A DNA stretch of 29,638 nucleotides, taken from IMG/VR virus record IMGVR_UViG_3300025162_000962, positions 1 to 29,638 of that record; one strand, given 5' to 3'. The notes under the pieces are model-generated. The model saw only the letters and a list, made by a program, of their open reading frames with translations, made no database searches and was not told where the DNA came from. Both the position numbers and the translations under genes were made by a program. This DNA comes from a virus. The first letter of the stretch is position 1, and each line of letters starts with the position of its first letter. Positions 2,781 to 21,360 of the stretch are shown piece after piece.

Positions 2781-4214
2781 ATGGAAATAATCAAAAAATC
2801 AATATTACAGATAGTAACCACTGGAAAAACATCTGGTGGGGATACTGTTATTGTTCCAGATTTAACCAAAATTTATCACATGAAATTTGGACTAGTATCT
2901 GAAGATAAAGATATTGGTTTTTTTGATGCATACGAGGGGAGTTTATGTTCAACAGATTGTTATTTTAGTGGAACTGCTATATATGCTTCAGCAACACCTA
3001 CTACAACAAGCACAAGCACGTCTACTTTAGAAATAATGTACGTTTTATTAAAAATAGATAATTGGGGGTCAAAAGTTGGAAATAATTTTACAATTGTACC
3101 CAACGTTGGCATAGCAATTCCATCTATTTCAACAAAAGTTGAACTATATAATGGAATATACATTATTGTTGATAATAATGCCACATATCTTAAATTAACT
3201 TCTAATGGTGAGTGTAGTAATTGTCCACAAATAATACAAATAAGTGGAATGCCTGTATCAACCACCACAACTTCTACAAGTACTAGTACAACCACAAGTA
3301 CTTCTACTAGCACATCTACAAGTACATCTACGTCCACAAGTACTAGCACGTCTACAAGCACGTCCACAAGTACTAGCACATCTACTAGCACGTCCACAAG
3401 TACTAGCACATCTACAAGTACTAGCACATCTACAAGTACTAGCACATCTACTAGCACGTCTACAAGTACTAGCACATCTACTAGCACATCTACTAGCACG
3501 TCCACAAGCACGTCTACAAGTACGTCTACGTCCACAAGTACTAGCACATCTACTAGCACGTCCACAAGCACGTCTACAAGTACTAGCACGTCTACTACCA
3601 CTACCACAACATTATCACCTATTGTTGTTACATATGGATATTCATATAATCATATGGTTGTTCCTAATATAGCTGGAAGTGGGTGGCATGTGCCAACGAC
3701 AAGCGAGGTCAATTCGTTAATTACTTTCTTAGGTGGCACTTCTGTTGCGGGAGGAAAATTGAAAGAAATTGGATATTCGCATTGGCTAACGCCCAATACT
3801 GGTGCTATTGATAGTTACGGGTTTGGGGGTGTGCCATCCCCATCAAGATCATACCCAGACTCAACGTTTGCTGGTGAAGGAAGTCAAGGTCCGTTATGGA
3901 CATCAACATCTAGTGTTGGAGATTATTATGACGTTTTTGTGACGGGGTTGTTTAATACCCCATCTGCATATGTCGGTACTTATCATAAAAACGGGGGATT
4001 TTCAATAAGACTTATTAAAGATGATGGTATTGATACAGGAAATTATGTTGGAAACGATGGAAAAGTTTACCCAACGGTGGTAATAAACGGACAGGTTTGG
4101 TTAGCTAAAAATTTGCGAGAGACTCAATATAATGATCACAGTAATATTCCAGAAGTACAAAATAATAGTACGTGGGCTGGTCTTTTTACTGGGGCAAGAT
4201 GTTATCAATCATAA
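2781..4214 (+). CDS. Tail/baseplate-associated protein with Thr-Ser linker and FISUMP tip
   Basis: A protein of 477 residues in three parts. The N-terminal 155 residues are a unique beta-rich domain with two CxxC-like pairs (CSTDC, CSNC) and a short TSTSTS patch near residue 75. Residues about 160-277 are a nearly perfect Thr-Ser dipeptide repeat. Residues about 283-477 are a FISUMP (Fibrobacter succinogenes major paralogous, TIGR02145-like) domain with GWHVPTTSEVN, GGKLKEIGYSHW, GGFSIRLIK, GNDGKVYPTVVINGQVWLAKNL and GARCY motifs. The second group of motifs normally precedes the first, so the domain looks circularly permuted. It is probably a virion surface protein whose tip binds the host, with the linker acting as a flexible or glycosylated stalk. 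It lies between baseplate genes. Receptor binding is inferred. Confidence 0.7.
   Translation: MEIIKKSILQIVTTGKTSGGDTVIVPDLTKIYHMKFGLVSEDKDIGFFDAYEGSLCSTDCYFSGTAIYASATPTTTSTSTSTLEIMYVLLKIDNWGSKVGNNFTIVPNVGIAIPSISTKVELYNGIYIIVDNNATYLKLTSNGECSNCPQIIQISGMPVSTTTTSTSTSTTTSTSTSTSTSTSTSTSTSTSTSTSTSTSTSTSTSTSTSTSTSTSTSTSTSTSTSTSTSTSTSTSTSTSTSTSTSTSTSTSTSTSTSTSTSTSTSTSTSTSTTTTTTLSPIVVTYGYSYNHMVVPNIAGSGWHVPTTSEVNSLITFLGGTSVAGGKLKEIGYSHWLTPNTGAIDSYGFGGVPSPSRSYPDSTFAGEGSQGPLWTSTSSVGDYYDVFVTGLFNTPSAYVGTYHKNGGFSIRLIKDDGIDTGNYVGNDGKVYPTVVINGQVWLAKNLRETQYNDHSNIPEVQNNSTWAGLFTGARCYQS
3258..3612 (+). repeat. Thr-Ser codon repeat tract 1
   Basis: About 118 codons of alternating Thr and Ser (some Thr-only at both ends) inside the tail gene 2781-4214. 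The DNA period is 6 nt with mixed codons: aca, acg, act for Thr, and agt, agc, tct, tcc for Ser. The protein pattern is kept while synonymous positions vary. Larger units such as acaagtactagcacatctac recur several times. The long open frames seen on the other strand and in the +1 frame here are by-products of the repeat. Confidence 0.95.
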
Positions 4215-4243
4215 TTCAGTCATAATACATAAAATATAATAAC

Positions 4244-4690
4244 ATGATAATAACAGGAACATCGAGTAGCAGATTAAGTGAGTTACGTAAATATACAGTA
4301 ACAAATGATTTTACGAAACAATATGTCATTGGGGGATCAATTAATACAGATGGCATTGATTTGTCTAGTTCGAATCCTTTGGATAAAATTGTTTATTATA
4401 TTGGTGGAATTAAATACGTTGATATAATTACTGGCAGTACGTCTGGAACTACATTAAATATATATACACCACAGGGCACTGCGAGTGCAAATTTTATAAA
4501 TGTTCCATATTTTAAAGACCCAAATAAAAATAATATAATTAGTAACCCAAAAATTATTGATGATGTATTTATATTAAGACAACAATTATCAGCATTTGAT
4601 AAAAATTATAGATTGGAATACATTGGTAATCTAGGTGATTTAGAAACATATGCGGGAGGTAATTTTTTTGTTATTGTAAATAATACTTAA
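4244..4690 (+). CDS. Hypothetical virion structural protein
   Basis: A protein of 148 residues that I do not recognise. It is rich in Asn, Ile, Thr and Tyr, with predicted short beta segments and no membrane segment, signal peptide or catalytic motif. It starts at an ATG in an A-rich leader (aatataataacATG) 29 nt after the FISUMP gene and is followed 21 nt later by another unknown structural gene. Its place between the gp6-like and gpI-like baseplate genes suggests a baseplate or tail-completion component; this comes from position alone. Confidence 0.5.
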   Translation: MIITGTSSSRLSELRKYTVTNDFTKQYVIGGSINTDGIDLSSSNPLDKIVYYIGGIKYVDIITGSTSGTTLNIYTPQGTASANFINVPYFKDPNKNNIISNPKIIDDVFILRQQLSAFDKNYRLEYIGNLGDLETYAGGNFFVIVNNT

Positions 4691-4711
4691 AATGACTAAA
4701 ATTTTTATAAA

Positions 4712-5608
4712 ATGAGCGTTGGAATTATTGGAACTACTCGTCCTGCAGATGTTAATATTTCAGATGTTGATATGTATTATGATTATACTCCGAATAGGCA
4801 AACACCTGCGGGGGCTATTATTAAGGTTACAAATAGTTCAGACTTTTTATCAACAACAACCTATGATGAAGGAATTGTCGGGTATTCTGAAAATCTTTTA
4901 GAAGGATTATATGATTTAAAATTACCTGCCTCAGTTTTCAGTCAATTAGGAATATATACAATATATTTTAAACCCAAATTAATCTCAACTGTGGTTGTTG
5001 ACTGTAGTGTTTTATCTGCATTACCAACAATTAAAGGAATTGTTATTGATATGAATTCATTACCCGAAAACTTAAAAGCAAACAACTCGCTACAGGGATA
5101 TAGAATTGAATATATTAATAGTGATGGAACTAAATTAAGAAATGTTGTTAGGTATGTGGTAACATCTAATAAAGTTTCAGCAATAAATGAAAATGTTGGT
5201 AATACAACACAAAAAGCAATTAGATATCGTTTTGATGATGCAGGCACACTAATATTTTTACAGGTTACCCCTTCTTCAGCTTCCAATGTCAAACCTAATG
5301 CATTACCTTTTATTGGAAATATTGGTCAAACAATATTAATGTCAAATACATATTTTTCACCATTGGTGGTTGAGATTGAAATGGTTGAAAACACAATCGA
5401 TACTCTTGCTTCGTTTGTAGCTGGGGAACAAATTAAAAGTGTTCAAGATGGTATATTGACCTATTATGATACTAATAGGGTGATTACTAAACAGTTTAAT
5501 TTGTTTGAGATTAAGGATAATATTACCAACGAGTTTTTATACGAGGTGAAGGAAAAAAGGACAACAATTGATGAGTCCCAGAATTTTGACACTGTTGTTA
5601 ATTTTTAA
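4712..5608 (+). CDS. Hypothetical virion structural protein
   Basis: A protein of 298 residues, not recognised. The N-terminus contains a repeated pattern of beta strands, and residues 20-90 (YYDYTPNRQTPAG, TTYDEGIVGYSENL, GLYDLKLP) look like an immunoglobulin-like or baseplate wedge fold. The C-terminus ends in a charged segment (LYEVKEKRTTIDESQ). There is no catalytic motif. It is the last gene of the 924-5608 block: a decayed endonuclease fragment and a hairpin terminator follow before the next promoter. It is probably a baseplate component by context. A seven-codon ORF at 4692-4715 overlaps its start as ATGA, which may be chance. Confidence 0.5.
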   Translation: MSVGIIGTTRPADVNISDVDMYYDYTPNRQTPAGAIIKVTNSSDFLSTTTYDEGIVGYSENLLEGLYDLKLPASVFSQLGIYTIYFKPKLISTVVVDCSVLSALPTIKGIVIDMNSLPENLKANNSLQGYRIEYINSDGTKLRNVVRYVVTSNKVSAINENVGNTTQKAIRYRFDDAGTLIFLQVTPSSASNVKPNALPFIGNIGQTILMSNTYFSPLVVEIEMVENTIDTLASFVAGEQIKSVQDGILTYYDTNRVITKQFNLFEIKDNITNEFLYEVKEKRTTIDESQNFDTVVNF

Positions 5609-5622
5609 TTTTTTATATATAA

Positions 5623-5769
5623 AAAAGATTTGATTGTTGTGAATATAAATATGCACTTCCTTTCGATTTTTATCTTCCTGATTATATTATCTCGAATGGT
5701 ATTAGGGTTAAATATAGCACGAAAATCTGGCAGTTAAGTTTATTACTTTTTATAAAATCCTATTCGTAA
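5623..5769 (+). pseudogene. Relic of a zinc-ribbon homing endonuclease
   Basis: The 208-base gap between two structural genes contains an open frame without a start codon. It reads KRFDCCEYKYALPFDFYLPDY from 5623, followed by unrelated residues to a TAA at 5767-5769. This matches the nuclease core of the three intact endonucleases here (KKYDNC..LPFDFYLPDYN, KKYDDC..LPFDFYLIDYN, KRFDDC..LPFDFYLSD). The catalytic EYDG.QHF that should follow is missing, and so is everything upstream. The tail KIWQLS weakly resembles the last residues of the copy at 1-948 (IKTWQTQL), so an internal deletion is possible. It is non-functional and marks a former homing insertion. Confidence 0.8.
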
Positions 5770-5790
5770 GTTTAGGATTTTTCTTTTTAC
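5754..5790 (+). terminator. Intrinsic terminator
   Basis: AAAATCCTA (5754-5762) pairs perfectly with TAGGATTTT (5773-5781) around a 10-nt loop and is followed by a T-rich run. It would end transcription of the 924-5608 block just before the GTATTTAT box of the next gene. Confidence 0.7.
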
Positions 5791-5791
5791 T

Positions 5792-5799
5792 GTATTTAT
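5792..5799 (+). promoter_or_regulatory. GTATTTAT box, putative phage late promoter 1
   Basis: GTATTTAT lies 17 nt before the GTG start of the 1449-residue baseplate gene and directly after a terminator hairpin. The same box with the same 17 nt spacing precedes 11685 and 14545. Confidence 0.6.
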
Positions 5800-5816
5800 G
5801 TTAAAATATAAAGTTC

Positions 5817-8800
5817 GTGGCAAAAGTAAAAGTAGTAAATAATAATCTTGACCAGAATTTAAACGGTAGCAATTTTAATAATACTGCTTCCGAAACAATA
5901 TTTTCGTTTGGCAGTTTTGCTGTAACATCAAATTTTGATGGTAGAAAATATATCGATTATACAAATTCTTTAAGTTCGTTTGTTCGTCCCGTCACATTGG
6001 AAACAATTGGAGTTTCTGATGTTCAATCCAGTATAATATATCAATATGCAACAAATGCAGTTCTAAATCTAGATAAATCAGACTTAAACACGTTTATTAG
6101 ATTTGGTTCTGCATATGAATTTTTAAGAGTTGCTGTTGAGAATATTATAACTTCGTACCCGGGCTCACTTTTCATGAACTCACAATCATCTAGAGGTGGT
6201 AATATAACTTATTTTGATTACGCCTATGATTTGATAACAAATACGTCAACATTTAAAATTCCAACCGTTTGTACCGTCAATACGTTTGGATTGGTATATA
6301 ATTATGGCAATGTTAGTTTGCCGAATAATAATGAATTAAAAAATATTAATATCTCATATAACAAATATGTTATATGGACATCTCAAGCACCTGATAATAA
6401 CGCTTATAATATTATTGAATTTGTTGGAAATGCTTCTGGTCGCAATTATTTGACGTTGAAAGTAGAAGGGAATCCGTTCTCGATGATTAGTGGAAGTACT
6501 TCATCAAATGTTGATTTTCACATAAAACCGAATAATTTTATTTTTGAAGAATTTAGAGCATTATTAAATGAATATGAAAAATATATAGTTTCAACTAGAG
6601 ACGGAATAAAAGGATTTAAATTTACACTTAAAGACCCCACATTACTTGATAATGGAAGTATTGTATATACCGACACCACATTAGTTTGGATAACAAGTGA
6701 TAATTATAATATTGATGTAAGTTCGCCAAGCTATCAAAAATTTTTAGAAATCCTATTGACTATTGGGAGTAAATATGATAGAATTAAAACAGACTTAATT
6801 GCAAGATTTTTAACACCGTCTTCGCTGAAGGCGTATGACCTTACTGAAGAGGGTAAAATGACCAAATTATTAAGAATTTATGGTAGAGAGTTTGACCAAT
6901 TAAGAGAATTTATCGATTCTTTGGTTTATATTAATAGAGTATCATATAATAAGGTTAATAATATTCCAGATCAATTGATTAAGAATATGTCAAATACTTT
7001 TGGTTGGGATTATTTTTCATTGGTTAATGAAGGTGAATTGGTTACCAGTTTTTTAACTATTGATGAGAATGAAAGAGATTTAAACGCTGACTTACTTCCA
7101 GCAGAAATTGATATTGAACTTTGGAGAAGAATATTAATGAACACAAATTATTTTTGGAAATCTAAAGGAACTAGGGATGCTATTAAATCAATGTTTCTTT
7201 TAATTGGTATTCCCGAACCATTTATTGATATTACTGAGTATGTGTATACTGTTGACGGTAAAATTAACCCCAATACTGTTGGATTATCGATAAATGATTT
7301 TCCCTCAAATTCGTTACCATATGACACCAATGGTTATCCTTCAGCACCATTAGAAACGAATAACTTCTTTTTTCAAATATCTGGTGATACGGATAGCGGT
7401 CAAGCGTATTTGGATGTGTTTCGCATGGCTGGTTTCAATTTAACAAGAACTATTGATAATAAAAAATCGTGGTCACAAAGTGGTGCAACATATAGGGCTG
7501 ATGATACTATGCCTCAATACTATCAAGAAGACAGTAAATTGGTTATAAACACAAAAGAGGTTGATGTTACGCTTGATACTTCACGTGGTATAGAATATGA
7601 CGTATATGATTATATTCAAAAAGATTTTGCAATTAATTCGAGTGGATACACATTACCGTTTTCATATGTAAATATATCTTTGAATTATGATGGTATACAA
7701 AATACTTTTACGTTGCCATATAATGTTGATAAAACATTGGGAGATTTTGAGGTTAGATATAATGGAATATTATTAAATGCACCAAAAAGCGGAACGACTA
7801 CGGGTATTACATATCAATCAGATTATACTATTAATTATGATACTAATACATTTACATTGATTAGCGGAACTGCGATTAATTCTGGAAATAGAAGAGATGT
7901 AATTCAAGCAACATTTGTTTATAGTGGTGGGACTCATTCAATTAGTGGGGTAACTGTTGATTATGTTGTAACAAGAATTAAGGCAGATGCAACTGGAACA
8001 ATTATTCCTTTGCCAAGTTATCCACGTGGAGATGTTCAGCTTACAATAAATGGAATTGCTTTGACCAAAGGTACATCACAATTTAACGCTGATTATATTG
8101 TTGATCCAAATAATACTGTGGGTGGAACGAATAATCTTATAATACAAAATCCAGAAGTGATATCGTACTTACAAACAAATTCCAGTGTTCAAATCGCATA
8201 TGTTGAAGTTGTGGGAAGTAATGATATTTCTGCTAGAAGTGAAGTTGTTAGAGTTGATAGTATTAATGCCAATAAAATATATTTTAATCAATTGGCGAAT
8301 AAATTTGTATATAAACTTAATTATAAAGCAAATAATGCAAAAGACGTTAAAATATTGATAGATGGAATTGCATTAGAACCCAATAAAGATTATAGTCTTA
8401 ATGCATTGAATCCATATGAAATATATTTACCAAATGGTATTAGATATGGTACAATTATTAGTGTATATTATCTTGTTGGAGGTAACGCTGCTTTTAAACC
8501 TGTTATTCATGACACTTTTGGTGTTGGGGACATTAGTAAATTATCGTTTCTTGAATTTATAGATTTAATTCAAAGAAAAATGGTAAATGCTAGAAACAGA
8601 AAAACAATAAGCGATTTTAAGGGTGGGTGGTATCCTGCATTGTTAAAAATTTATGTTGAATATTTAAAAAGAGCAAATCTTCCAAATGGTGATCCATTAA
8701 AATCTAATGGTTATACATTCCATAATTTATATTCGTTTTTAAGTAAATATAATTCTTTGTTTCAAAGATTTGTAGATCAATTATTACCCGCAACAATTAT

Positions 8801-10166: not shown

Positions 10167-10195
10167 ATAATTAATAAAAATAAAATAATAAAACT

Positions 10196-11635
10196 ATGTC
10201 AGCACCTTGGATAATAACACCATTAAAAACTGGAGCAATTCCTGCAAACAACTATACTTGCACAATTTCGGGTTTGTTGCCTGCTACTGTATATGAATAT
10301 CGTGCATATATGCTTGTTGATGGTGTGCCATATTACGGTGAAATATGCCAAATAACGACATTACCAATTCCAACGCAATCTCCAATATTAACAACTGGAA
10401 TTGCATACGACATTACAAATATTAGTATGGGAATTTGTAATAATGTTGTTAACTATAATGGTAATTTGCCAATTACTGAATATGGTGTATTATATACACA
10501 ATTGGGTGCTTATGGTAATGAATCACAATTAACAATTGATAAATACCCATCGCTTGTTTGTAAACAATCAATATCTGCTGATATTGCTATTGGTGTTAAT
10601 TATTTTACTGGCAGCGGAAATTTATTAACAAGTCTCTCTTGTAATACTGAGACCTTTTATAGAGCATTTGCTATAAATGCGCATGGTGTTGGATATGGTA
10701 ATATTAAATCGCAAATAGTTATTCCGTCTACAAGCACTAGCACGTCTACAAGCACATCTACAAGTACTTCCACTAGCACAAGTACTTCCACTAGCACATC
10801 TACAAGTAGCACGTCTACAAGCACATCTACAAGTACTTCCACTAGCACAAGTACTTCCACTAGCACATCTACAAGTAGCACGTCTACTAGTACATCTACA
10901 AGCACTAGCACATCTACAAGTACTTCCACTAGCACGTCTACAAGCACATCTACAAGTACTTCCACTAGCACAAGTACTTCCACTAGCACTAGCACGTCTA
11001 CTAGTACATCTACAAGTACTTCCACTAGCACAAGTACTTCCACTAGCACTAGCACGTCTACTAGTACATCTACAAGCACATCTACAAGCACTAGCACATC
11101 TACAAGTACTTCCACTAGCACATCTACAAGTACTTCCACTAGCACTAGCACATCTACAAGTACTTCCACTAGCACTAGCACGTCTACTAGTACATCTACA
11201 AGCACATCTACAAGCACTAGCACATCTACAAGTACTTCCACTAGCACTAGCACATCTACAAGCACGTCTACTAGTACAACAACTAGCACCACTACGTCAT
11301 CTCCAATATATGTAAATGTTACTAATGGAACAACGTCACCATTTACTTCAACAATATTGAGTGTTGCAGTGAATGGATATAATATAGTGGGAGGTTCATT
11401 TCCATTAACAATGGGAAATTCTACAAATGGGACTACTGATCAGATTGGTACTTATGATTTAACTGTTGTAGTTTTCTCGACATATAGTGGAAATGGTGCT
11501 ATTATTGTATCTGACTCAAATGGTACTCCATATTGTGTTGAAGTGAGTGGAAATACAACAATAACATTCCCGAATATTGTTGTAAGTAATAGCGGTAATA
11601 TTGATGTTGCAATTAGTAATGGAAATTGTGTTTAA
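10196..11635 (+). CDS. Tail protein with FN3-like domains and long Thr-Ser linker
   Basis: A protein of 479 residues. Residues 1-175 contain FN3-like segments (LLPATVYEYRAYMLVDG, ITEYGVLYT, ETFYRAFAINAHGVGYG). The TEYGV and YRA.A.N..G.GYG signatures match FN3 domains common in Bacteroidetes surface proteins. The first segment continues the style of the C-terminus of the preceding 1449-residue protein. Residues about 178-369 are the longest Thr-Ser repeat in the window. Residues 370-479 form a compact beta domain of unknown family, ending DVAISNGNCV. It is probably a peripheral fibre or spike. Start at ATG 10196 in an A-rich leader; no GTATTTAT box, so it is probably cotranscribed with the gene before it. 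Confidence 0.65.
   Translation: MSAPWIITPLKTGAIPANNYTCTISGLLPATVYEYRAYMLVDGVPYYGEICQITTLPIPTQSPILTTGIAYDITNISMGICNNVVNYNGNLPITEYGVLYTQLGAYGNESQLTIDKYPSLVCKQSISADIAIGVNYFTGSGNLLTSLSCNTETFYRAFAINAHGVGYGNIKSQIVIPSTSTSTSTSTSTSTSTSTSTSTSTSTSSTSTSTSTSTSTSTSTSTSTSTSSTSTSTSTSTSTSTSTSTSTSTSTSTSTSTSTSTSTSTSTSTSTSTSTSTSTSTSTSTSTSTSTSTSTSTSTSTSTSTSTSTSTSTSTSTSTSTSTSTSTSTSTSTSTSTSTSTSTSTSTSTSTSTSTSTSTSTTTSTTTSSPIYVNVTNGTTSPFTSTILSVAVNGYNIVGGSFPLTMGNSTNGTTDQIGTYDLTVVVFSTYSGNGAIIVSDSNGTPYCVEVSGNTTITFPNIVVSNSGNIDVAISNGNCV
10727..11302 (+). repeat. Thr-Ser codon repeat tract 2
   Basis: About 190 codons of alternating Ser and Thr, built from recombining units such as acatctacaagtacttccac and actagcacgtctactagtac. 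Two Ser-Ser doublets (acaagtagcacgtct) break the alternation. Part of the tract (10778-10848) is identical to 15889-15959 in another tail gene. Confidence 0.95.
10778..10848 (+). repeat. 71-bp exact repeat, copy 1
   Basis: Read base by base, these 71 bases match 15889-15959 exactly, including the acaagtagcacg interruption that gives a Ser-Ser doublet. Sequence on either side diverges. Confidence 0.9.
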
Positions 11636-11659
11636 TTCACGAGCTAAAATAAAAAATAA

Positions 11660-11667
11660 GTATTTAT
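11660..11667 (+). promoter_or_regulatory. GTATTTAT box, putative phage late promoter 2
   Basis: The box lies 17 nt before the ATG of the long tail gene 11685-14498, in the context aagtatttatgattaaaat. No conserved -35 element is visible. Confidence 0.65.
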
Positions 11668-11684
11668 GATTAAAATCTTTAAAA

Positions 11685-14498
11685 ATGTCGTTTATTGATA
11701 AAAAAGACCCTGTTGTTTTAAGCATAATGTTAACATCAAAAGGTAGGGAACTATTATCTACTGGAAACCTAACATTCAAATATTTCGCTGTTGGTGATAG
11801 TGAAATTGATTATGGGTTGACCAATGAAATAAATAACATTGAATCTCATTTAAATTATAAACCATATCCGCTTGATTTGAGTATTTTAAGACCCACAAAT
11901 AAAAATCCTCAAATAATTTCTTTCGTTCCACAGAACATAACAGGTAATCCGTATAATTTAATATCAAGAGTACCATCAACACCATATGAAATTGTTAACA
12001 AAACCTCAACAATAGGGTTTTTTACTAATACTGGGACAACATTTATAACGGATAGTAATCACGTTAAACAACCCGATGCAATGGTTGACGTGAATGGAGT
12101 TACTGGTGGAACAAAACTCACGTTAAAAAAAGCACCAACATACGGTGCAAATATTAACGAACCTTCGATTGGGGATTTACTTTTAGTTAAATGGTCTGTT
12201 TATTCGAATACAACAGGATATACAATAAATAAAAATATTCCAACACCATATTTAACGTATCAAATTGTTAATAAGACAGGTACGTTGAGTTCCGATAATC
12301 TTATTGTAAGTGTTGATAGAAATTTGCCTGATTTCAATGGGTATTACCCAACCGCTAAAGCAGGTGCAATGATTTATTATAATTTTATTAATTATAGTGG
12401 TGCAACATTATTTGAAAATACTACGGCTGATTATAAGATTAAAAGCGTTTCATCGTTTTTGAATAATACTGAGTGTCCCACTGTTGTATTCCCATATTGG
12501 AATATGTCAATCATATATACAGAAGAAATTGCGGGGGTTAAATTTGTTGATAGAAATTTTGGACAATTTAATAGTAGGGCATATGGTGGATTTGTTTCAT
12601 ATATACAAAATCAAGCACCTATTTATAAAAAATTAGGTGTGATACATTATACGAATAATTCTCCAGCAAATGTGTATGCAGAAGAATTATATTTAAAAAC
12701 CGCCAAATTAGAAATTCCAAACATATTGTGGCACAAATCGAGTACAATTACAATGGGCATTACACTTGTGCCAACGGGTGATAGTAAATTATTAACTGGT
12801 GAAACAAAATCATTGAATTTAAAATATTACGATTTAGCAGATTTAGATGGTAATATTGTTGGAAAAGTGCTCACAGAATTAAAAATATTCTTGATTGAAG
12901 ACCAAGAATTGTTGTTTGCAATGTCATATAAGTCAAATAGGTCTTGGACTCTTCCAGATTATCTTGTTGGTAGTATTGGTGGGGCTGGTGCAGCACCAAC
13001 ATCTACCAGTACATCAACGTCTACAAGTACGTCTACCAGTACCAGTACATCTACCAGTACCAGTACATCTACTAGTACTTCTACATCTACTACAACAGTA
13101 CAACCAATATATTATAATGTTCAAATGTCTCAAGCATTTCAGAAGAATGATTGTCCCGCAGGACCGTCCTATGGTAATTATGTTACATATACGGTGATTG
13201 CAGCAAAATATAGTTCTTTAATATCTCAGGCAGCAGCAAATGCGTTGGCACAAGCAGAAATTGACGCAAATGGTCAAACTAATGCAAATATTAATGGTGT
13301 TTGTGAAGTAGTTCCACCGACAACCACTACCAGTACATCTACAAGTACCAGTACAAGTACATCTACAAGTACCAGTACATCTACAAGTACAAGTACGTCT
13401 ACAAGTACATCTACAAGTACAAGTACATCTACAAGCACGTCTACAACAATATCACCAAACCCAATGCTGATCACTAATCCATCTTTTGATCAATCATATA
13501 CTACTGCGGGTGTGGGTGGTAATGTGTTAACTTTGGGCGGTGGTGGAAGTACAATTGATGCAATTGGAGTTGTTTATGTTACTGCTACACAATATGATAA
13601 TGGCCGTGGAATGCCACCTGAAGCTGGCACTCAAGTATTCGGCATTGGTGGTGGACTAGGTGTATTCACATTAACATTATCTAATTTAATTAATGGTACT
13701 GATTATGTTTATAAAGCATTTGCTATAAATAATTTAAATCAAACGGGTTATGCTGGCAATGTTGAAACATTTACCACATTAATATTACCCACAACTACTA
13801 CCACTACAAATGCACCAATACCACCACCTGTAGGAATACCCGGGGTTGCAACCACATCACCCAACTTAAGTAATATTACTATGTCGAGTGCAATTCTTGG
13901 CGGATATGTATATAGTGAAGGTGGGTCAGCGATTACCGAAATGGGTATTTGTTATTCCATTATTAATACTAGTCCACCCGAAGCAGGGTCATATGTACTA
14001 GATGGCAATATTGGAATTGGTCAATTTATGGTAAATTTAAATGGATTGTCACCTAATACGACATATGTTTTCAAAGCCTATGCACGTAATATTTTTGGTG
14101 GTGCATATGGTCAAGAATATACATTTACCACCAACTCTACAACACCCACCACAACAACAATTCCACCGATTAATATTTCTCGTTATACAATTGGTATTTC
14201 TCCAATTGCTCCACTGGGAAGTGTTATACATAGTGTTAAAATAAATGGAATGGAACTACTTTCTGGAGATATTGGTACTTATGAAGGTACTATTGGTGGT
14301 GATGCAACTCCTTTTTTACATGACCCAACGATAGAGGTGTTATCAACAAATATTATTCATACTGAAATGAATGTTGCTTCTGATGGAGGGGTTAATCTAG
14401 CACATCCAACATATGTGGATGGAAATGGAGTAACGCATTCGGGTTTTCATGTAACTAATTTTTCTAATTATCTGATTATCTCAATAGTTAATGGTTAA
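11685..14498 (+). CDS. Long tail fibre-like protein with DUF5977-like and two FN3 domains
   Basis: A protein of 937 residues. Residues 1 to about 430 are closely related to the N-terminus of the next gene: both begin with a K.. variant of MLTSKGRE.LSTGNLTFKY and end with RSWTLPDY. This shared part is probably the virion-attachment base. Then follow Thr-Ser linker 1 (about 439-470), a 75-residue module with QAFQKNDC, YSSLISQAAANALA and GQTNANINGVC motifs (DUF5977-like, by memory), and Thr-Ser linker 2 (about 545-588). Two FN3-like domains come next (second with AITEMGICYS, PNTTYVFKAYARNIFGGAYG), then a C-terminal beta domain ending SNYLIISIVNG. Modular architecture and position suggest a host-recognition fibre. 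Promoter box and start spacing match 5817 and 14545. Confidence 0.7.
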   Translation: MSFIDKKDPVVLSIMLTSKGRELLSTGNLTFKYFAVGDSEIDYGLTNEINNIESHLNYKPYPLDLSILRPTNKNPQIISFVPQNITGNPYNLISRVPSTPYEIVNKTSTIGFFTNTGTTFITDSNHVKQPDAMVDVNGVTGGTKLTLKKAPTYGANINEPSIGDLLLVKWSVYSNTTGYTINKNIPTPYLTYQIVNKTGTLSSDNLIVSVDRNLPDFNGYYPTAKAGAMIYYNFINYSGATLFENTTADYKIKSVSSFLNNTECPTVVFPYWNMSIIYTEEIAGVKFVDRNFGQFNSRAYGGFVSYIQNQAPIYKKLGVIHYTNNSPANVYAEELYLKTAKLEIPNILWHKSSTITMGITLVPTGDSKLLTGETKSLNLKYYDLADLDGNIVGKVLTELKIFLIEDQELLFAMSYKSNRSWTLPDYLVGSIGGAGAAPTSTSTSTSTSTSTSTSTSTSTSTSTSTSTSTTTVQPIYYNVQMSQAFQKNDCPAGPSYGNYVTYTVIAAKYSSLISQAAANALAQAEIDANGQTNANINGVCEVVPPTTTTSTSTSTSTSTSTSTSTSTSTSTSTSTSTSTSTSTSTSTTISPNPMLITNPSFDQSYTTAGVGGNVLTLGGGGSTIDAIGVVYVTATQYDNGRGMPPEAGTQVFGIGGGLGVFTLTLSNLINGTDYVYKAFAINNLNQTGYAGNVETFTTLILPTTTTTTNAPIPPPVGIPGVATTSPNLSNITMSSAILGGYVYSEGGSAITEMGICYSIINTSPPEAGSYVLDGNIGIGQFMVNLNGLSPNTTYVFKAYARNIFGGAYGQEYTFTTNSTTPTTTTIPPINISRYTIGISPIAPLGSVIHSVKINGMELLSGDIGTYEGTIGGDATPFLHDPTIEVLSTNIIHTEMNVASDGGVNLAHPTYVDGNGVTHSGFHVTNFSNYLIISIVNG
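12999..13098 (+). repeat. Thr-Ser codon repeat tract 3a
   Basis: A run of about 33 codons joining the shared N-terminal base to the DUF5977-like module. It is built mainly from agtacatctacc-type units, using acc for Thr, and differs from tracts 1 and 2. Confidence 0.9.
13319..13449 (+). repeat. Thr-Ser codon repeat tract 3b
   Basis: A second run of about 43 codons in the same gene, between the DUF5977-like module and the FN3 domains, dominated by acatctacaagtac units. Having both tracts flank one module makes that module look like an exchangeable cassette. Confidence 0.9.
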
Positions 14499-14519
14499 TT
14501 TTTAAATTTTATTTCGTTA

Positions 14520-14527
14520 GTATTTAT
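14520..14527 (+). promoter_or_regulatory. GTATTTAT box, putative phage late promoter 3
   Basis: The box lies 17 nt before the GTG start at 14545, in the context tagtatttataattaaatt. Leader and early coding sequence resemble those of 11685, so the promoter was probably duplicated with the gene. Confidence 0.65.
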
Positions 14528-14544
14528 AATTAAATTCATGAAAA

Positions 14545-16719
14545 GTGGCATTTATTAATAAAAAAGATTCTCTTGTTTTAAACATAATGTTAACATCAAA
14601 AGGTAGGGAACAATTGTCTACTGGAAATTTAACGTTCAAATATTTTGCTGTTGGTGATAGTGAAATTGATTATAATTTCATAAGAGACGTTAATTTTCCA
14701 ACAGGCGAGGCAAATTATAATGTTGCCGATTCAAGCATTTTACAACCAACTGATAAGTACCCTAAAATAATTTCTTTTATTCCGAACATAATATCTGGCG
14801 ATCCATATAATATAATATCAACAATTTCTTCAAAGTCATACGATGTTATGGATAAAGTAGAACCTCTTGGATTTTTTTCAAATGATGTGACGAAATTTAT
14901 TGTTGATGCGGATCATGTTAAACAACCAGATGCAATGGTTTATGTGAATAGTGTTGCGGGGGGGAGATTTTTAAATTTAAAAAAAGCACCTACATATGGT
15001 ACAAGTGGTCAAGAACCAGTAATTGGTGATTTACTTTTGGTTAAATGGGTGCATTATGGAAGTAGCACAGGGTATACAATAAATAAAAACATCCCCACAC
15101 CATATTTAACATATCAAATTGTTAATAAAACTGGTACATTAGGTAATAATAATTTAATCGTAACTGTTGATAGAAATTTACCTGATTTTAGTGGAAATCC
15201 GTTATATAATGGTATTGCAGGTGCAATGATTTATTATAATTTCACTAATTATATTGGTGATACTATATATAATGATTTAGAAACTGATTATATTAATGAA
15301 AGCATATTATTATTCACCCAAAATAATGAATGCCCAGTTCCTTCGTTTCCATTTTGGAATTTGTCAATTGTAAATACTGAGGAAATTGCGGGAGTTCAAT
15401 ATGTCGACAGAAAATTTACACAATCCCCAAGTAGAACATATGGTGGATTTGTTTCATATATTCAACAACAAGCACCCGTTTACAGTAAACTAGGTATTAT
15501 TCATTATAGTAACGAAGCCCCTACAAATACATATGGTGAAGAATTTTATTTAAATTCTAAATTAGAAATACCTTGGATTATGTGGCATAAATCAAATACC
15601 ACAACAATGGGCATTACACTTATGCCAATAGGTGACAGTAAAACATTAACAGGGAAAACAAAATCACTTAATACTGTATATTATGATTTGGCTGATTTAG
15701 ATGGTAATGTTGTGGGTAAAGTATTTACGGAATTGAAAATATTTTTAATTGAAGACCAAGAACTGTTATTTGCAATGTCATACAAGTCAAATAGGTCTTG
15801 GACGCTTCCAGATTATATTGTTAATGGCATCGTACCTACAACAACCACAAGTACAAGCACATCTACAAGTACATCTACAAGCACATCTACAAGTACTTCC
15901 ACTAGCACATCTACAAGTAGCACGTCTACAAGCACATCTACAAGTACTTCCACTAGCACTAGCACATCTACCACTACCAGTACATCTACCAGTACATCTA
16001 CAAGTACATCAACGAGTACAAGTACGTCTACCAGTACAAGCACAAGTACATCAACAACCACAATTCCACCAATTGTAAATAGTTATGGATATTTATATAA
16101 CTGGTATGCCACCACAAATATAAAAAAAATTGCAAATGAAGGATGGACAATTCCAGATTCCACTCAATTTGAAACATTAATGAAATATGTTGATCCTTTG
16201 GGGCATGCCCTTTCTAATACGGCAGCAAATGCACTAAAAGAAATTGGAACAACATATTGGACAGATGCACATGGAACAAATGCAACTGGATTTAATGCAC
16301 GTGGAGGTGGAATAAGAGATTATTCAACAGGCTTAGTTAGTAATATAAAATATAGTGCAACATATTGGACAAGTTTTATTTTAGATGATAGTATACATAA
16401 AGGCGTTGCTGGATTATGGACAAACTTACCGCAATTTGCAGTACCGATTTCTGGCGATGGTTTTCCAAGATACAATCCACATGAAGGTGTTTCGGTTAGA
16501 TTAATTAAAAATACAACAACATTAACAAATGGTCAATCAGGTACGTATGTTGGAAATGATGGAACTATTTATAATACAATTTGTATTGGAACTCAGGAAT
16601 GGATGTCTGAAAATTTAAAGGAAACTAGATATAATGACGGTACACTTATTCCAGAAATATTAAACAATATTGAATGGATTAATGATTCAATTGGTGCTAG
16701 ATGTTATTATATTTTATAA
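14545..16719 (+). CDS. Long tail fibre-like protein, paralogue of the preceding gene, with FISUMP tip
   Basis: A protein of 724 residues from a GTG start aligned with the ATG of the paralogue at 11685. Residues 1 to about 430 repeat that paralogue's base (KGREQLSTGNLTFKYFAVGD, NIPTPYLTYQIVNKTGTL, TKSLN..YYDLADLDGN). A Thr-Ser linker (about 432-506) leads to a FISUMP domain (about 510-724) with YGYLYNWYATTN, EGWTIPDSTQFE, ALKEIGTTYW, GVSVRLIK, then GTYVGNDGTIYNTICIGTQE, WMSENLKETRYNDGTLIP and GARCYYIL. The latter motifs normally precede YG.LYNWYA, so the domain appears circularly permuted, as in 2781-4214. It is probably an alternative or accessory adhesin carried on the same attachment base. 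Confidence 0.7.
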   Translation: MAFINKKDSLVLNIMLTSKGREQLSTGNLTFKYFAVGDSEIDYNFIRDVNFPTGEANYNVADSSILQPTDKYPKIISFIPNIISGDPYNIISTISSKSYDVMDKVEPLGFFSNDVTKFIVDADHVKQPDAMVYVNSVAGGRFLNLKKAPTYGTSGQEPVIGDLLLVKWVHYGSSTGYTINKNIPTPYLTYQIVNKTGTLGNNNLIVTVDRNLPDFSGNPLYNGIAGAMIYYNFTNYIGDTIYNDLETDYINESILLFTQNNECPVPSFPFWNLSIVNTEEIAGVQYVDRKFTQSPSRTYGGFVSYIQQQAPVYSKLGIIHYSNEAPTNTYGEEFYLNSKLEIPWIMWHKSNTTTMGITLMPIGDSKTLTGKTKSLNTVYYDLADLDGNVVGKVFTELKIFLIEDQELLFAMSYKSNRSWTLPDYIVNGIVPTTTTSTSTSTSTSTSTSTSTSTSTSTSSTSTSTSTSTSTSTSTSTTTSTSTSTSTSTSTSTSTSTSTSTSTSTTTIPPIVNSYGYLYNWYATTNIKKIANEGWTIPDSTQFETLMKYVDPLGHALSNTAANALKEIGTTYWTDAHGTNATGFNARGGGIRDYSTGLVSNIKYSATYWTSFILDDSIHKGVAGLWTNLPQFAVPISGDGFPRYNPHEGVSVRLIKNTTTLTNGQSGTYVGNDGTIYNTICIGTQEWMSENLKETRYNDGTLIPEILNNIEWINDSIGARCYYIL
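15838..16063 (+). repeat. Thr-Ser codon repeat tract 4
   Basis: About 75 codons linking the shared base to the FISUMP tip. The first half uses the same units as tract 2 (including the 71-bp exact copy), and the second half uses tract-3-like accagtacatct units. It reads as a mosaic of two repeat families. Confidence 0.95.
15889..15959 (+). repeat. 71-bp exact repeat, copy 2
   Basis: Identical to 10778-10848 in the tail gene 10196-11635, including its Ser-Ser interruption. The flanks differ. Confidence 0.9.
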
Positions 16720-16750
16720 TAATTAATAAATATTTTCCATTTTTTTAAAT

Positions 16751-16780
16751 TTATAATAATTTATAATAATTTATAAGTAT
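16751..16780 (+). repeat. AT-rich decamer tandem repeat
   Basis: Two perfect copies of ttataataat (16751-16770) and a third diverged copy (ttataagtat) that merges into the GTATTTAT box. Confidence 0.7.
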
Positions 16781-16814
16781 TTATAGTAAACAATAAAAAT
16801 TTATAAATACTTAT
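16773..16814 (+). promoter_or_regulatory. 13-bp inverted repeat spanning promoter box and start codon
   Basis: ATAAGTATTTATA (16773-16785) and TATAAATACTTAT (16802-16814) are exact reverse complements separated by 16 nt. The left arm contains the GTATTTAT box and the right arm ends on the first two bases of the ATG at 16813. In RNA it could hide the start codon; in DNA it puts the box in both orientations. Confidence 0.75.
16777..16784 (+). promoter_or_regulatory. GTATTTAT box, putative phage late promoter 4
   Basis: It lies 28 nt before the first glycosyltransferase gene, the longest spacing of the six boxes, and inside a 13-bp inverted repeat. It would drive the sugar cassette. Confidence 0.55.
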
Positions 16815-17835
16815 GAGACAATTAAGATATATTTGTGCACAGCCAGCTATTAAATATTATGCTTGGCAGGTAGAAGTAATGATAAACAATTTCATTGAGA
16901 TGGGTATTAATGCTAATAACATTGATATTATTGCGTGGAAGGAGAATGGTATAATACCTGAAGAATGGAGTAAGCTTGCAAATAGATATGCAGCAAGATT
17001 CTTTTTTTATGATGACACCAGAGAAATCAAACACTACGTTTCATCAATCAGACCTAATATTTTAAAACAACATTTTAAAGCGCATTCTTACTTAAAGAAT
17101 GATGTAATATTTTATCATGATTGTGATATTGTATTTACTAAACCGCCAAGAGAGTGGATTAGTGATGATATGTTGAATGATGAAGAGTGGTATGGTTCTG
17201 ATACTCGTTGGTATATTGCTCATTCATATATTAAGAGTAAAGGTGATGATATTATTCAGAAAATGTGCAATATTATGCAAATGGATGAGAAAGTAATTGA
17301 AGACAATGAATTAAATTGTATAGGTGCACAATATCTAATGAAAAATGTCGATTATTCTTATTGGGATAGGGTTGAAAAAGATTCGGAGAAATTATTTAAA
17401 GACGTTACAAATTTAAATAACAAAAAAATTTATTTAGATAAAATCAAATGGGAAGAAGAAAAAATTGAATGGGAGAAAAATAATGTGGAAGCAATTGCCA
17501 ATGGTGAAAAATTCTCCAAGCCACTATATCACGAGTTACAAATATGGTGCGCAGATATGTGGGCAGTCCTATGGGGTGCATGGAGATTGGGTTATAAAAC
17601 TAATATTCATCCTAATTATGAATTTAGCTGGGCAACATCAAGTGAAAATGATTATGATAGAATGAATATTATGCATAATGCTGGTATTGAATCAGCAGAT
17701 AATGGTCAATTTTATAAAGCTGCATATATGAATAGTTTTCCATATAATTTAGATTTAAAAATAAACGAATATACCACTAGTAAGAAATATTATGAGTGGG
17801 TTCAAAAGGTAGAAAAAATAACTTGTTTAATCTAA
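16813..17835 (+). CDS. Putative glycosyltransferase with DxD motif
   Basis: A protein of 340 residues. The N-terminus MRQLRYICAQPAIKYYAWQV and the following alternating strands and helices fit a GT-A nucleotide-binding fold. The FYHDCDIVFTKPP segment (DCD, residues 103-105) is a typical metal- and UDP-sugar-binding DxD. A Trp-rich C-terminal segment (WCADMWAVLWGAWRLGYKT) could line the acceptor site. A charged helical insertion lies around residues 205-235. There is no membrane segment, so it is cytoplasmic. It is the first gene of a run of three glycosyltransferases and a methyltransferase placed among tail genes, which suggests modification of virion proteins or of a host glycan. I cannot name the family; fold and class are inferred from motifs. 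Confidence 0.65.
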   Translation: MRQLRYICAQPAIKYYAWQVEVMINNFIEMGINANNIDIIAWKENGIIPEEWSKLANRYAARFFFYDDTREIKHYVSSIRPNILKQHFKAHSYLKNDVIFYHDCDIVFTKPPREWISDDMLNDEEWYGSDTRWYIAHSYIKSKGDDIIQKMCNIMQMDEKVIEDNELNCIGAQYLMKNVDYSYWDRVEKDSEKLFKDVTNLNNKKIYLDKIKWEEEKIEWEKNNVEAIANGEKFSKPLYHELQIWCADMWAVLWGAWRLGYKTNIHPNYEFSWATSSENDYDRMNIMHNAGIESADNGQFYKAAYMNSFPYNLDLKINEYTTSKKYYEWVQKVEKITCLI

Positions 17836-17853
17836 ATAAAAAAATTAATTATT

Positions 17854-18618
17854 ATGAATAAAAAAAATGTTGGAATTGTAATATTAGCAACTAATGCTTA
17901 TTTTGTACTTGGCGTAAATTTGATGAAGAAATTCATATATCATTATAAAGGCGATGCAAAAATTACTTTTTATTTTTTCTCGGATACAAACCCTAATGAA
18001 TATGTTCCAGATAATTTAGATGTTAAATATACACACCAAGTACATGATAATTGGTTGGATGGTACGAATTCTAAGTTTACAAATATATTGTCATTAGAAA
18101 ATTCGGATGCTGATTATTTAATATATATAGATGCAGACACCAGTATATCAAAGGATTTTACCGAAGAATGGTTTATTGGTGATACGGTAGGATTGGAACA
18201 TTTCGGTAACAATGGTTGGATGAAAGACGTTAAAGGTTATGATAGAAATATAAACTCAAAAGCATATGTGCCAATGGATACTCCATTATTTCAAATGTAC
18301 TATCATGGGTGCTTGTTTGGTGGAGAGAAAAATAGGCTTATGGAAGTATGTAAAATTTTGCATAATAATCAGTTGGAAGATAAAAAAATATCTTATGAAC
18401 CCGGGGTAAATGATGAAAGTTACATTAATCAATATTATCACTATAATCCCCCTACTCTTACAGTATATTTAGATAAATATATGTTTAATGTTAGTGATAA
18501 GGGAGGAATTGGGGATACTAGAGATATGAAATTAAATATAGGGTCACTAAAAGCAGAAATGTTAATTAATAAAAACAATAATTACGATATTATAAACAAC
18601 CGTATAGTAGTAAAATGA
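17854..18618 (+). CDS. GT6-family glycosyltransferase
   Basis: A protein of 254 residues, the usual size for bacterial GT6 enzymes, which lack the mammalian membrane anchor. It starts MNKKNVGIVILATNAYFVLG. DAD (residues 93-95) in LIYIDADTSI is the metal-binding site. YYHGCLFGGEKN and NDESYINQYYHYNPPTLTVY match the GT6 FFGG and DES.LN.Y...PT..L regions of the ABO blood-group transferase family. These are retaining alpha-Gal/GalNAc transferases. Many bacterial GT6 proteins have NxN in place of DxD, so the intact DAD is worth noting. It sits 18 nt after the previous transferase and overlaps the next by ATGA, so the three are probably cotranslated. Confidence 0.8.
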   Translation: MNKKNVGIVILATNAYFVLGVNLMKKFIYHYKGDAKITFYFFSDTNPNEYVPDNLDVKYTHQVHDNWLDGTNSKFTNILSLENSDADYLIYIDADTSISKDFTEEWFIGDTVGLEHFGNNGWMKDVKGYDRNINSKAYVPMDTPLFQMYYHGCLFGGEKNRLMEVCKILHNNQLEDKKISYEPGVNDESYINQYYHYNPPTLTVYLDKYMFNVSDKGGIGDTRDMKLNIGSLKAEMLINKNNNYDIINNRIVVK

Positions 18619-19934
18619 TTTCCTCATTTAAAACGATTGATAATAACACAAGTATAGAATATAAAAACATATATTCTATATTTGGCGTGTTATATTTTTT
18701 CACTATTGAAGAAATTAATTTACCTTATGTTAAAAAATTTACAACGTCTTATGACTGGAGACCACAAATCAAAAAATTTAATTCTGAAGAAGAGCTAAAT
18801 AATTACATAGAAACCCTTCAAGACATAAAAATTGTTGACTTAGCAGTATTGGCGGATAATTTGTGGTATGGAAATATTGGGCACGGATTATTTGACGGAT
18901 TATACCCAATATATCTATCATTATTAAAATTTGGATATGTTGACGAACCTTTTACGTTTTTATCTATGGATTGGTCGTTTAGGGAAAATTTTGCGTATGA
19001 TACGATTAAAGCTTTCACAAAACAGGAATTGTTAGAATATACTAATTTAGATAAAAGTGAAATATTTCACTTCAAAACGTTGATTGCTGGAACAGATCCA
19101 ACGGGAAATAGGGTTGTAAATAAAGAAATGTTTATATATGGTAAACATTGGGATGGTTTAGCACAGTTTAAAAGAAGACTTTTTGAAGTACATGGTATTA
19201 ACATTGACAAACCATTAAATCGTGTGCCCAATGTAATCATAATTAATAATAAGAGATTTAATGAACAAGATGTAATAATTCTTAAAGAGGTTGTTAATAA
19301 GGTATCTGATATTTGTAACATAAAATTTATTGATTGGTATCATGATTATAAAATTTATGGAAACAAAGCATTTATTAAACAAATGGAAGACTTTCAAGAG
19401 GTAGATATTCAGATTACTGCACCGGGTACTGGAATGATGTATCTTCCACTTCTTAAACGAGGTGCTGTTAATATTAATCTTGGATTTATCGAACACACTC
19501 AAACCAATACAGTTAGAGGTAATCTTAAAATATTGGAATCAAAGCACCCAGATCATTTAATTCCTGCATATATGGAACAGCCCATATGTGCTGGGACATA
19601 TTATGTTACTAGTTTATATTATGATAGATATAAATACAATAATTTGGAGATCGAACCATTAATTGCCATAATTAATGAGGCAATTGAACTAATAAAAAAT
19701 GGTCAAATTATTGAGGGTAATGTTAATATAGATGCTAAAGTATTTAGGGAATATTGTAAAATAGCTAAAGACGCAAATGAAATTTGTGCACATCTAACAT
19801 ACGGATCGCTACACGTAGAATTTTTTGTGAACGAACATCCATACGCATTATTACCAACAACTGATATAGAATTACTTAGAAAAATTAAAGATGAGCTTGG
19901 TTATGATAGACAATACGAAATTCGTTTGGACTAG
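18615..19934 (+). CDS. GT61-like glycosyltransferase
   Basis: A protein of 439 residues with a start that overlaps the stop of the GT6 gene (ATGA). Residues about 80-110 (LADNLWYGNIGHGLFDGLYP) recall the N..H.L.D.L.P region of GT61/DUF563 proteins. FKRRLFEVHGI and VIIINNKR follow. The segment VDIQITAPGTGMMYLPLLKRG followed by AVNINLGF corresponds to the GT61 GA...N..F...G..vvE region. GT61 includes xylosyl-, arabinosyl- and O-GlcNAc-transferring enzymes (EOGT, POMGNT2). No membrane segment is seen. The 3' end overlaps the start of the methyltransferase frame by 44 nt. Family assignment is moderate; the sugar is unknown. Confidence 0.6.
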   Translation: MISSFKTIDNNTSIEYKNIYSIFGVLYFFTIEEINLPYVKKFTTSYDWRPQIKKFNSEEELNNYIETLQDIKIVDLAVLADNLWYGNIGHGLFDGLYPIYLSLLKFGYVDEPFTFLSMDWSFRENFAYDTIKAFTKQELLEYTNLDKSEIFHFKTLIAGTDPTGNRVVNKEMFIYGKHWDGLAQFKRRLFEVHGINIDKPLNRVPNVIIINNKRFNEQDVIILKEVVNKVSDICNIKFIDWYHDYKIYGNKAFIKQMEDFQEVDIQITAPGTGMMYLPLLKRGAVNINLGFIEHTQTNTVRGNLKILESKHPDHLIPAYMEQPICAGTYYVTSLYYDRYKYNNLEIEPLIAIINEAIELIKNGQIIEGNVNIDAKVFREYCKIAKDANEICAHLTYGSLHVEFFVNEHPYALLPTTDIELLRKIKDELGYDRQYEIRLD

Positions 19935-20553
19935 AGTCATTGGTGGAATTCCCCTTCAGTTTGAAGATGTGGCAACGTCTAATACAGTGCCATTTGTATT
20001 TGGAGAATTTGAGCAAGATTACTATTGATTAGAACAAATTCAATTATCCAAAGAAGATATTGTAATTGATGTGGGTGCTAATGTTGGAATGTTTTCCATT
20101 TATATTAAAAAGAAGTTTGGGTGTAAAGTAATTGCATTTGAGCCAGTTCCAATGAACTTCAAACAATTTAAGAAAAATATTATTCTAAATGGTTTGTCTT
20201 TAGATGATTTTGAATTACATAATACTGCTGTGACTGACGTTGAAGGAGAGATTGTTAGAATTGGTACTCCGTTGGATAATACTGGAGGTTCATCCACTTA
20301 TGATTTCAACACCAATTATTCAATGTGTAAAACTGAAACGTTAGAAAAATACATAACAAAAGATTGTAAATACTTGAAAATAGATTGCGAAGGCAGTGAA
20401 TATTCAATCATTCCTTCAATACTCCATAAGATTAACCAATTTAGTTATATTGGGATTGAATACCACAAATTCAATGAGGATCAAAATCCCAAAGTATTAC
20501 ATGAAACATTGAGAATGAATTTTAATGGAGAAATGTTTCATGCAGATATTTAA
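19891..20553 (+). pseudogene. FkbM-family methyltransferase interrupted by in-frame TGA
   Basis: From ATG 19891 (or 19903) the frame encodes 45 residues ending FGEFEQDYY, meets TGA at 20026-20028, then continues in the same frame with LEQIQLSKEDIVIDVGANVG to 20553. The downstream part has the Methyltransf_21 signatures: the SAM-binding DVGANVGMFSIY, VIAFEPVPMNF, an NTAVTD..GE segment and YLKIDCEGSEYSII. A downstream GTG (20071) would start inside the SAM motif and is an unlikely true start. FkbM enzymes O-methylate sugars, which fits the neighbouring transferases. The gene is either recently inactivated, read through at TGA, or carries a sequencing error. TGA is an ordinary stop for other genes here (for example 29545), so genome-wide recoding is unlikely. 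Confidence 0.75.
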
Positions 20554-20613: not shown

Positions 20614-21360
20614 ATGGCAAGCGGATATTCAATATTTACAACATATCTTTTAGTACCAACTGGAACATCTTTGGGTTATGGTTATAGTGAAGCAATTCAT
20701 TGTAATTATATTAAGAAAACTCAATCAGCAGTAACAAACCCAACAATGGGGGAAACAACCATAAATTTTCCAAATATTGCCGAATTTAAGTTTCTTAGTG
20801 ATGATCTCGTGCATAGCACTGGATATACTGTTCATAGAATATTTGCATTAATACAAATTATTGATAATGCTGGTTATACAAATATTGGGGATGTAAAAGC
20901 AATTGCTTCTGAATGGAGAATTTTTGAAATTACCAATCAGATTCTCACGCATGCTGCTGGAACACCATTAACTGCAAAACAATTAACAAGCGTTGTTTTT
21001 AGAGTACCATTTAACGACTACTATACATATCCCATATATAATTTAAGTTATCTCAATTATCCAACAAAAGAAATTGCTGATGATGATAAATTATGTCTTG
21101 GTGATGAAATATACTTTTTTGGCAACGTATCAACAGAAATAAAAGCAATTGCATATACAACCGATCTTTCAATTAATTTGCCATTAAATCAGTTTAATTC
21201 ATCCACAAATAATACTTGGACTGAAACTGATCAGGTAGCAATAAGTGAAATCGGTATATATGATGCAAACAAAAATCTAGTCGCAATTGGGAAACTTAAT
21301 AACCCGATTATTAAGGATGAAACGATTTCTAGAACAATCGTTTTTGATATAGATTTTTAA
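20614..21360 (+). CDS. Putative virion structural protein (tail/baseplate)
   Basis: A protein of 248 residues of unknown family, beta-rich and without membrane segments. The C-terminal VAISEIGIYDANKNLVAIGK segment, followed by LNNPIIKDET, is a pattern common in phage tail-fibre and baseplate proteins (an EIGIyd..g.lvaig..). The N-terminal MASGYSIFTTYLLVPTG also looks like a short virion-binding segment. It has its own GTATTTAT box, like the other virion genes, which supports late expression. Function is by resemblance and context only. Confidence 0.55.
   Translation: MASGYSIFTTYLLVPTGTSLGYGYSEAIHCNYIKKTQSAVTNPTMGETTINFPNIAEFKFLSDDLVHSTGYTVHRIFALIQIIDNAGYTNIGDVKAIASEWRIFEITNQILTHAAGTPLTAKQLTSVVFRVPFNDYYTYPIYNLSYLNYPTKEIADDDKLCLGDEIYFFGNVSTEIKAIAYTTDLSINLPLNQFNSSTNNTWTETDQVAISEIGIYDANKNLVAIGKLNNPIIKDETISRTIVFDIDF

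Follow-up and report, generated by a model that had tools for sequence, protein, structure and literature searches.

A phage protein family with a predicted glycosyltransferase fold adjoins Thr/Ser-tract virion proteins and is a candidate for their O-glycosylation

The DNA analysed here, a 29.6-kb viral fragment called the window throughout (IMG/VR record IMGVR_UViG_3300025162_000962; 31% G+C), has its main genes on the plus strand, and its host, judging from related Flavobacterium and Chryseobacterium phages, is probably a Bacteroidota species. Behind a baseplate wedge gene, the window encodes four tail proteins (T1 to T4) with long tracts of threonine and serine, followed by a gene for a protein of the phrog_4417 family, here called GT1, and by a cassette encoding a GT6-family glycosyltransferase, a GT61-like protein and an FkbM methyltransferase (Table 1). 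An earlier note on this DNA had read the arrangement as that of a phage decorating the stalks of its own tail fibres. We examined the relation between GT1, the tracts and the cassette in the window, in other viral loci, in isolated phages and in bacterial genomes.

Table 1. Features of the window, with the bacterial loci that encode relatives of GT1
Feature	Position	Strand	Description
Baseplate wedge gene	924-2771		phrog_219; precedes the tail protein block
Tail protein T1	2781..4214	+	N-domain, 118-residue Thr/Ser tract, C-terminal FISUMP domain (PF09603, E=1.2e-15; TIGR02145); after the baseplate wedge gene
Thr/Ser tract 1 (T1)	3258..3611	+	118 residues; 64 T, 54 S
Tail protein T2	10196..11635	+	192-residue tract; no Pfam match
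Thr/Ser tract 2 (T2)	10727..11302	+	192 residues; 96 T, 96 S
Tail protein T3	11685..14498	+	N-domain in common with T4; DUF5977 between two tracts (PF19404, E=1.1e-22)
Thr/Ser tract 3a (T3)	12999..13097	+	33 residues
Thr/Ser tract 3b (T3)	13320..13448	+	43 residues
Tail protein T4	14545..16719	+	N-domain, 75-residue tract, then FISUMP (PF09603, E=9.9e-19); directly 5' of GT1
Thr/Ser tract 4 (T4)	15838..16062	+	75 residues
GT1	16813..17835	+	phrog_4417 family, predicted GT-A fold; proposed Thr/Ser-tract O-glycosyltransferase
D103-C-D105 (DxD) of GT1	17119..17127	+	both Asp invariant in the 62-sequence alignment
GT6-family glycosyltransferase	17854..18618	+	ABO-transferase-like; PF03414, E=1.5e-14, 54 bits (cutoff 25); proposed glycan extension
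GT61-like protein	18615..19934	+	no family match for the window protein; proposed glycan extension
FkbM methyltransferase gene	19903..20553	+	interrupted; PF05050, E=2.4e-13 (51 bits), and TIGR01444, 1.1e-20 (74.6 bits), both above cutoffs
Gene after the cassette	20614-21360		same gene at the same place in a 327-kb relative
GT1 relatives with an extra C-terminal region	L301, L303, L308, L312, L316, L319, L322, L326		in Bacteroidota clusters of lanthipeptide type or for other ribosomally synthesized and post-translationally modified peptides (RiPPs)

The five nearly perfect tracts that the earlier note had described in the four tail proteins were confirmed: all are 100% Ser/Thr, with a T-S alternation of 89–96%. 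As Ser and Thr make up only 16–21% of the remainder of the same proteins, tracts of these lengths cannot arise by chance. Each tract is written with four Thr codons and three to five Ser codons in a mixture of synonymous forms, and thus it is the protein sequence that is kept. Of 36 viral loci drawn at random (297 kb), none had an uninterrupted Ser/Thr run of 12 or more residues ([ST]12+) or GT1. Tract 2 is 192 residues long in the window and 235 residues long in a near-identical twin contig (L001/L033; L001 position 10727, L033 position 1984), corresponding either to a length polymorphism or to the assembly of a repeat.

The phrog_4417 profile covers residues 5–334 of GT1, nearly its full length (E=2.1e-56); the family is annotated as "unknown function" and, in some records, as "prophage pi2 protein 34". 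The GT1 sequence gave no match above cutoff in Pfam, NCBIfam or the PDB, and its relatives gave isolated weak Pfam matches (PF04488, E=0.014). The AlphaFold model (pLDDT 97.1, pTM 0.92) was compared with the PDB by Foldseek, which returned 135 matches with E<0.001, the best 50 of the 135 being all glycosyltransferases, among them UGGT, glycogenin, ABO transferases and LARGE1. The nearest predicted viral structures were unnamed phage proteins, followed by GT8-type enzymes. Both aspartates of the DxD motif are invariant among the 62 aligned sequences (relatives 29–81% identical to GT1), and the same is true of H288-N289-x-G291. A suspected kinship of GT1 with GT95 and GT96, the plant hydroxyproline arabinosyl- and serine galactosyltransferases, found no support in Pfam or the PDB. 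A search with PADLOC, bearing on a possible anti-defence role, gave no match.

Close relatives of GT1 are encoded on 344 viral contig stretches, and 62 viral loci were left after near-identical copies had been removed. When tracts were scored as [ST]12+ runs by open reading frame (ORF) position, they were found in 35 of 58 ORFs immediately upstream of GT1 (position -1) and in 15/53 at position -2, then in 8/49 and 2/46 further upstream, versus 5/295 at positions +1 to +6 (Fisher p=1.6e-27). A density criterion of 12 Ser/Thr in 16 residues gave 44/58 at position -1 versus 7/295 downstream. Co-occurrence of tracts and transferases across phages, which the earlier note had named as one of its checks, was thus found for GT1 but not for the GT61 or GT6 genes. 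In addition, phage relatives found through the baseplate gene and lacking GT1 had no true Ser/Thr tracts over their whole records. The WSN codon pattern alone yields false tracts (G001 in the forward direction, G023) and was applied only with the sequences inspected; the sole match among these relatives, in G023, contains non-Ser/Thr codons. The exceptions among the baseplate-gene relatives, a near twin and the 327-kb relative, carry both GT1 and tracts, and in a further one (L002) tracts are present and the stretch analysed stops before the GT1 position. A last exception, L007, has a GT1 fused to a radical SAM/SPASM domain and no tract.

Homologues of GT1 were also found in 72 GenBank phage records, mostly from phages of Enterococcus, Lactobacillus, Staphylococcus and Lactococcus, plus the Chryseobacterium phage MA9V-3, with 24–34% identity among the matches listed. 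In the ten of these isolated phages that were examined, plus phiFL2A, GT1 often comes after the major capsid or the major tail protein, or after a small protein near them. We compared these eleven with eight GT1-negative relatives chosen by capsid or tail protein similarity. Virion proteins or their neighbours bore Thr/Ser runs in 10 of the 11 (nine of the ten, and phiFL2A), SAC12B having PTT-type repeats in their place, and at least two such tailed proteins were present in CHPC836, R3.3, iLp84, phiFL1A and 1706. None of the eight relatives without GT1 in the examined stretch (0/8) showed Thr/Ser tails; the resulting Fisher p of 1e-4 is only indicative, as the comparisons are not all independent (three are Coetzeeviruses). 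The closest pair was CHPC836, with GT1, and 4268, without it, whose capsid proteins are 91.6% identical: the capsid and tail proteins of CHPC836 end in ...TTTTTTQATTTTTSHA and ...STTTTTTTHA, and phage 4268 has neither ending. The same contrast was observed between R3.3 and Silenus, ATCC8014 and phiJL-1, and between phiFL1A and Javan47 and 315.6. The GT1 homologue of phiFL2A is split in two frames (L353:4654-5563), yet its major tail protein bears the tail and matches the phiFL1A protein.

We consider it likely that GT1 puts the first sugar on the Thr/Ser tracts of virion proteins and that the exchangeable genes downstream lengthen or cap the resulting glycan. GT1 would be a phage-encoded, cytoplasmic protein O-glycosyltransferase of the DxD type, moving a sugar from a nucleotide sugar onto Thr and Ser of the dense tracts; the acceptors in the window would be the stalks of the four tail proteins, which bear FISUMP and other tip domains. 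The GT6 and GT61-like proteins, and FkbM where it is intact, would then act on this first sugar, the extension genes being exchanged between phages while GT1 stays. The proposal that the phage decorates its own fibre stalks, for which the earlier note had suggested mimicry of host glycans or stiffening of the fibres as purposes, stands as the best explanation, but the partner that tracks with the tracts is GT1, and the GT6, GT61-like and FkbM genes behave as swappable accessories.

A different account, in which the cassette remodels the surface polysaccharide of the host by receptor masking or serotype conversion and the tracts are unrelated flexible linkers, seems to us improbable. Phage glycosyltransferases that alter serotype are well known, according to work cited in PMC12619734, and glycans are the substrates of GT6 and GT2 enzymes; however, GT1 immediately follows a tract gene in most loci, its homologues in isolated phages are mostly inside the capsid and tail gene block, and close relatives lack both GT1 and the tails. 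We also regard as very doubtful a reading of the tracts as linkers without glycans, or as repeat expansions, that are associated with GT1 through a shared genomic hotspot. The length difference of tract 2 between near-identical contigs resembles that of simple repeats, and many tract loci have no GT1, but the mixed synonymous codons speak against mere repeat expansion, and a local hotspot fails to explain why capsid and tail proteins encoded several genes apart are both Thr-tailed in the presence of GT1 and both untailed in relatives without it.

Regarding the cassette, the earlier note had placed three glycosyltransferases and an FkbM methyltransferase directly downstream of the tail genes, behind a late-type box. 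This description held for GT1, as judged by its predicted fold and invariant DxD, for the GT6 enzyme, whose protein also matched ABO/GalNAc transferases in the PDB (E=2.3e-10), and for the family of the FkbM protein, but the FkbM gene is interrupted: it starts with the ATG at 19903 and has an in-frame TGA at 20026-20028, as in two other near-identical contigs. Because the interruption is present in all three, methylation may have been lost in this population; an uninterrupted homologue is found in the viral locus L034. The ORF at 20071-20553 was rejected as a separate short FkbM gene, being the downstream remainder of the interrupted one, and no need for TGA recoding was seen, as in-frame TGA is absent from the window's remaining main ORFs. 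The GT61-like assignment proved weak, with PF04577 matching five of six members of the family at a best E of 0.0083 and leaving the window protein itself unmatched; as a key enzyme it was set aside, on account of this weak profile, the lack of a homologue in INPHARED and a predicted model too poor to use. The proposed late-type box, TATAAATA at 16802, is an octamer present six times in the AT-rich window and is therefore no evidence for such an element.

Among the ORFs one to three places behind GT1 in the viral loci, up to 32 of 122 belong to glycosyltransferase families (GT2, 15; GT32-like, 7; Caps_synth, 3; GT25, 2; and others), and methyltransferases are found there too. On contigs without GT1, a glycosyltransferase domain was detected in only 1 of 66 tract neighbours, and other glycosyltransferases were thus rejected as general partners of the tracts. 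The 327-kb relative retains GT1, at 81% identity, together with the genes on either side of the set, whereas the slot between them holds a GT32-like gene, a methyltransferase gene and a GT2-like gene. Such a pattern suggests an initiating enzyme that is kept and extension enzymes that are exchanged, which would act in this order. Directly behind GT1 in several viral loci, radical SAM/SPASM (7 ORFs) and APS kinase (4 ORFs) genes were also observed, a hint of sulfation or other modification.

It is also conceivable, if rather unlikely, that GT1 glycosylates the tracts while the GT6, GT61-like and FkbM proteins act elsewhere, the neighbourhood being a shared insertion hotspot. In L034 and L035, about 9 kb separate GT1 from the GT6-GT61-FkbM genes, which are encoded on the opposite strand and, in L034, have non-virion genes around them; downstream of GT1, genes for APS kinase, radical SAM proteins and superoxide dismutase suggest a mixed hotspot. 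Nevertheless, GT1 is also present in 9 of 11 records with the GT6 gene, glycosyltransferases are enriched behind GT1 and not beside tracts without it, and the same slot in a close relative holds a different but functionally similar set.

Several observations weigh against GT1 as the enzyme that initiates glycosylation of the tracts. Its TM-scores to solved glycosyltransferases are only about 0.3–0.5, and with so modest an overlap GT1 is, as modelled, a branch of its own within the GT-A fold. Fifteen of the 62 GT1 loci have no nearby tract (in three of them GT1 is at the contig start), and on the L007 contig GT1 (L357:3134-5116) is fused to a radical SAM/SPASM domain and preceded by a gene without a Thr/Ser tract. 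Conversely, GT1 was seen on only about 18% of the viral contigs that bear tracts, many of them short fragments (13/100 in flanks, plus 5/38 whole records), so tracts can exist without it. Finally, the chromosomal relatives of GT1 have few Thr/Ser tracts, most having none nearby.

These chromosomal relatives, 36 proteins nearly all from Bacteroidota, were recovered when bacterial genomes were searched with the GT1 alignment. Most of those examined have an additional C-terminal region, in two of them with weak kinship to Glyco_transf_7C, and several adjoin genes for a lantibiotic dehydratase (LanB), LanC-like proteins, C39 transporters or leader peptides, as in lanthipeptide-type clusters. Phage GT1 differs in lacking the Glyco_transf_7C-like region and in adjoining virion proteins, but both contexts place the family beside ribosomal peptides, and the proximity of the chromosomal relatives to ribosomally made peptides supports a peptide acceptor for the family. 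A wider reading, tentative but quite possible, is that phrog_4417 is an unnamed family of Thr/Ser-tract peptide glycosyltransferases common to particles of Bacteroidota and Bacillota phages and to Bacteroidota RiPP clusters. Pure tracts carried by capsid, tail tube and fibre proteins would act as an acceptor code, and extension modules (GT2, GT6, GT11, GT25, GT32-like, methyltransferases and perhaps sulfation and radical-SAM chemistry) would be swapped behind the initiating enzyme, changing the glycan coat as capsule loci do.

Both the glycosyltransferase fold and the association with Thr/Ser tracts are newly proposed for phrog_4417, of which GT1 is a member, and literature searches on threonine-rich virion proteins with glycosyltransferases found no paper on the GT1 family or on the Thr/Ser signature. 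In serine-rich repeat adhesins, a dense Ser/Thr stalk is glycosylated by dedicated, linked glycosyltransferases, and the enzymes that extend the glycan are exchangeable. The window is alike in its dense Ser/Thr stalks, its linked glycosyltransferase-like genes and the exchangeable extension set proposed here; it differs in that no accessory secretion genes were seen in it. The GT6 family includes the ABO/GalNAc and alpha-Gal transferases, and the gene found here is a phage copy. Mycobacteriophage virion proteins are glycosylated, and PMC12619734, in its summary of Freeman et al. 2023, places the glycans at the C-termini of the subunits of capsid and tail tube. The likeness would be in the glycans on phage virion proteins, and the difference in the acceptors, which in the window would be long stalks inside adhesin-like tail proteins instead of short C-terminal tails. 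In addition, no GT1 homologue was found in the Mycobacterium phage records searched at E<=1e-5.

The proposal gives a testable function to a widespread phage protein family of "unknown" annotation, and a Thr/Ser tail with an adjoining phrog_4417 gene would be a sequence signature of phages with likely glycosylated particles. Adsorption, stability and recognition by antibodies can all depend on a glycan coat, which makes this relevant to phage biology and therapy. GT1 itself may be a soluble enzyme that glycosylates peptides and whose acceptor is a simple repeat, and pairs of close phage relatives that differ in both GT1 and tails offer ready natural experiments.

Elsewhere in the window, treble-clef zinc finger and GIY-YIG proteins, likely of the mobile endonuclease type, are encoded at dispersed positions (1-948, 22246-23382, 23379-23687, 25227-26339 and 26942-27835), and a gene for an ECF-like sigma factor lies at the end of the fragment (28880-29545).

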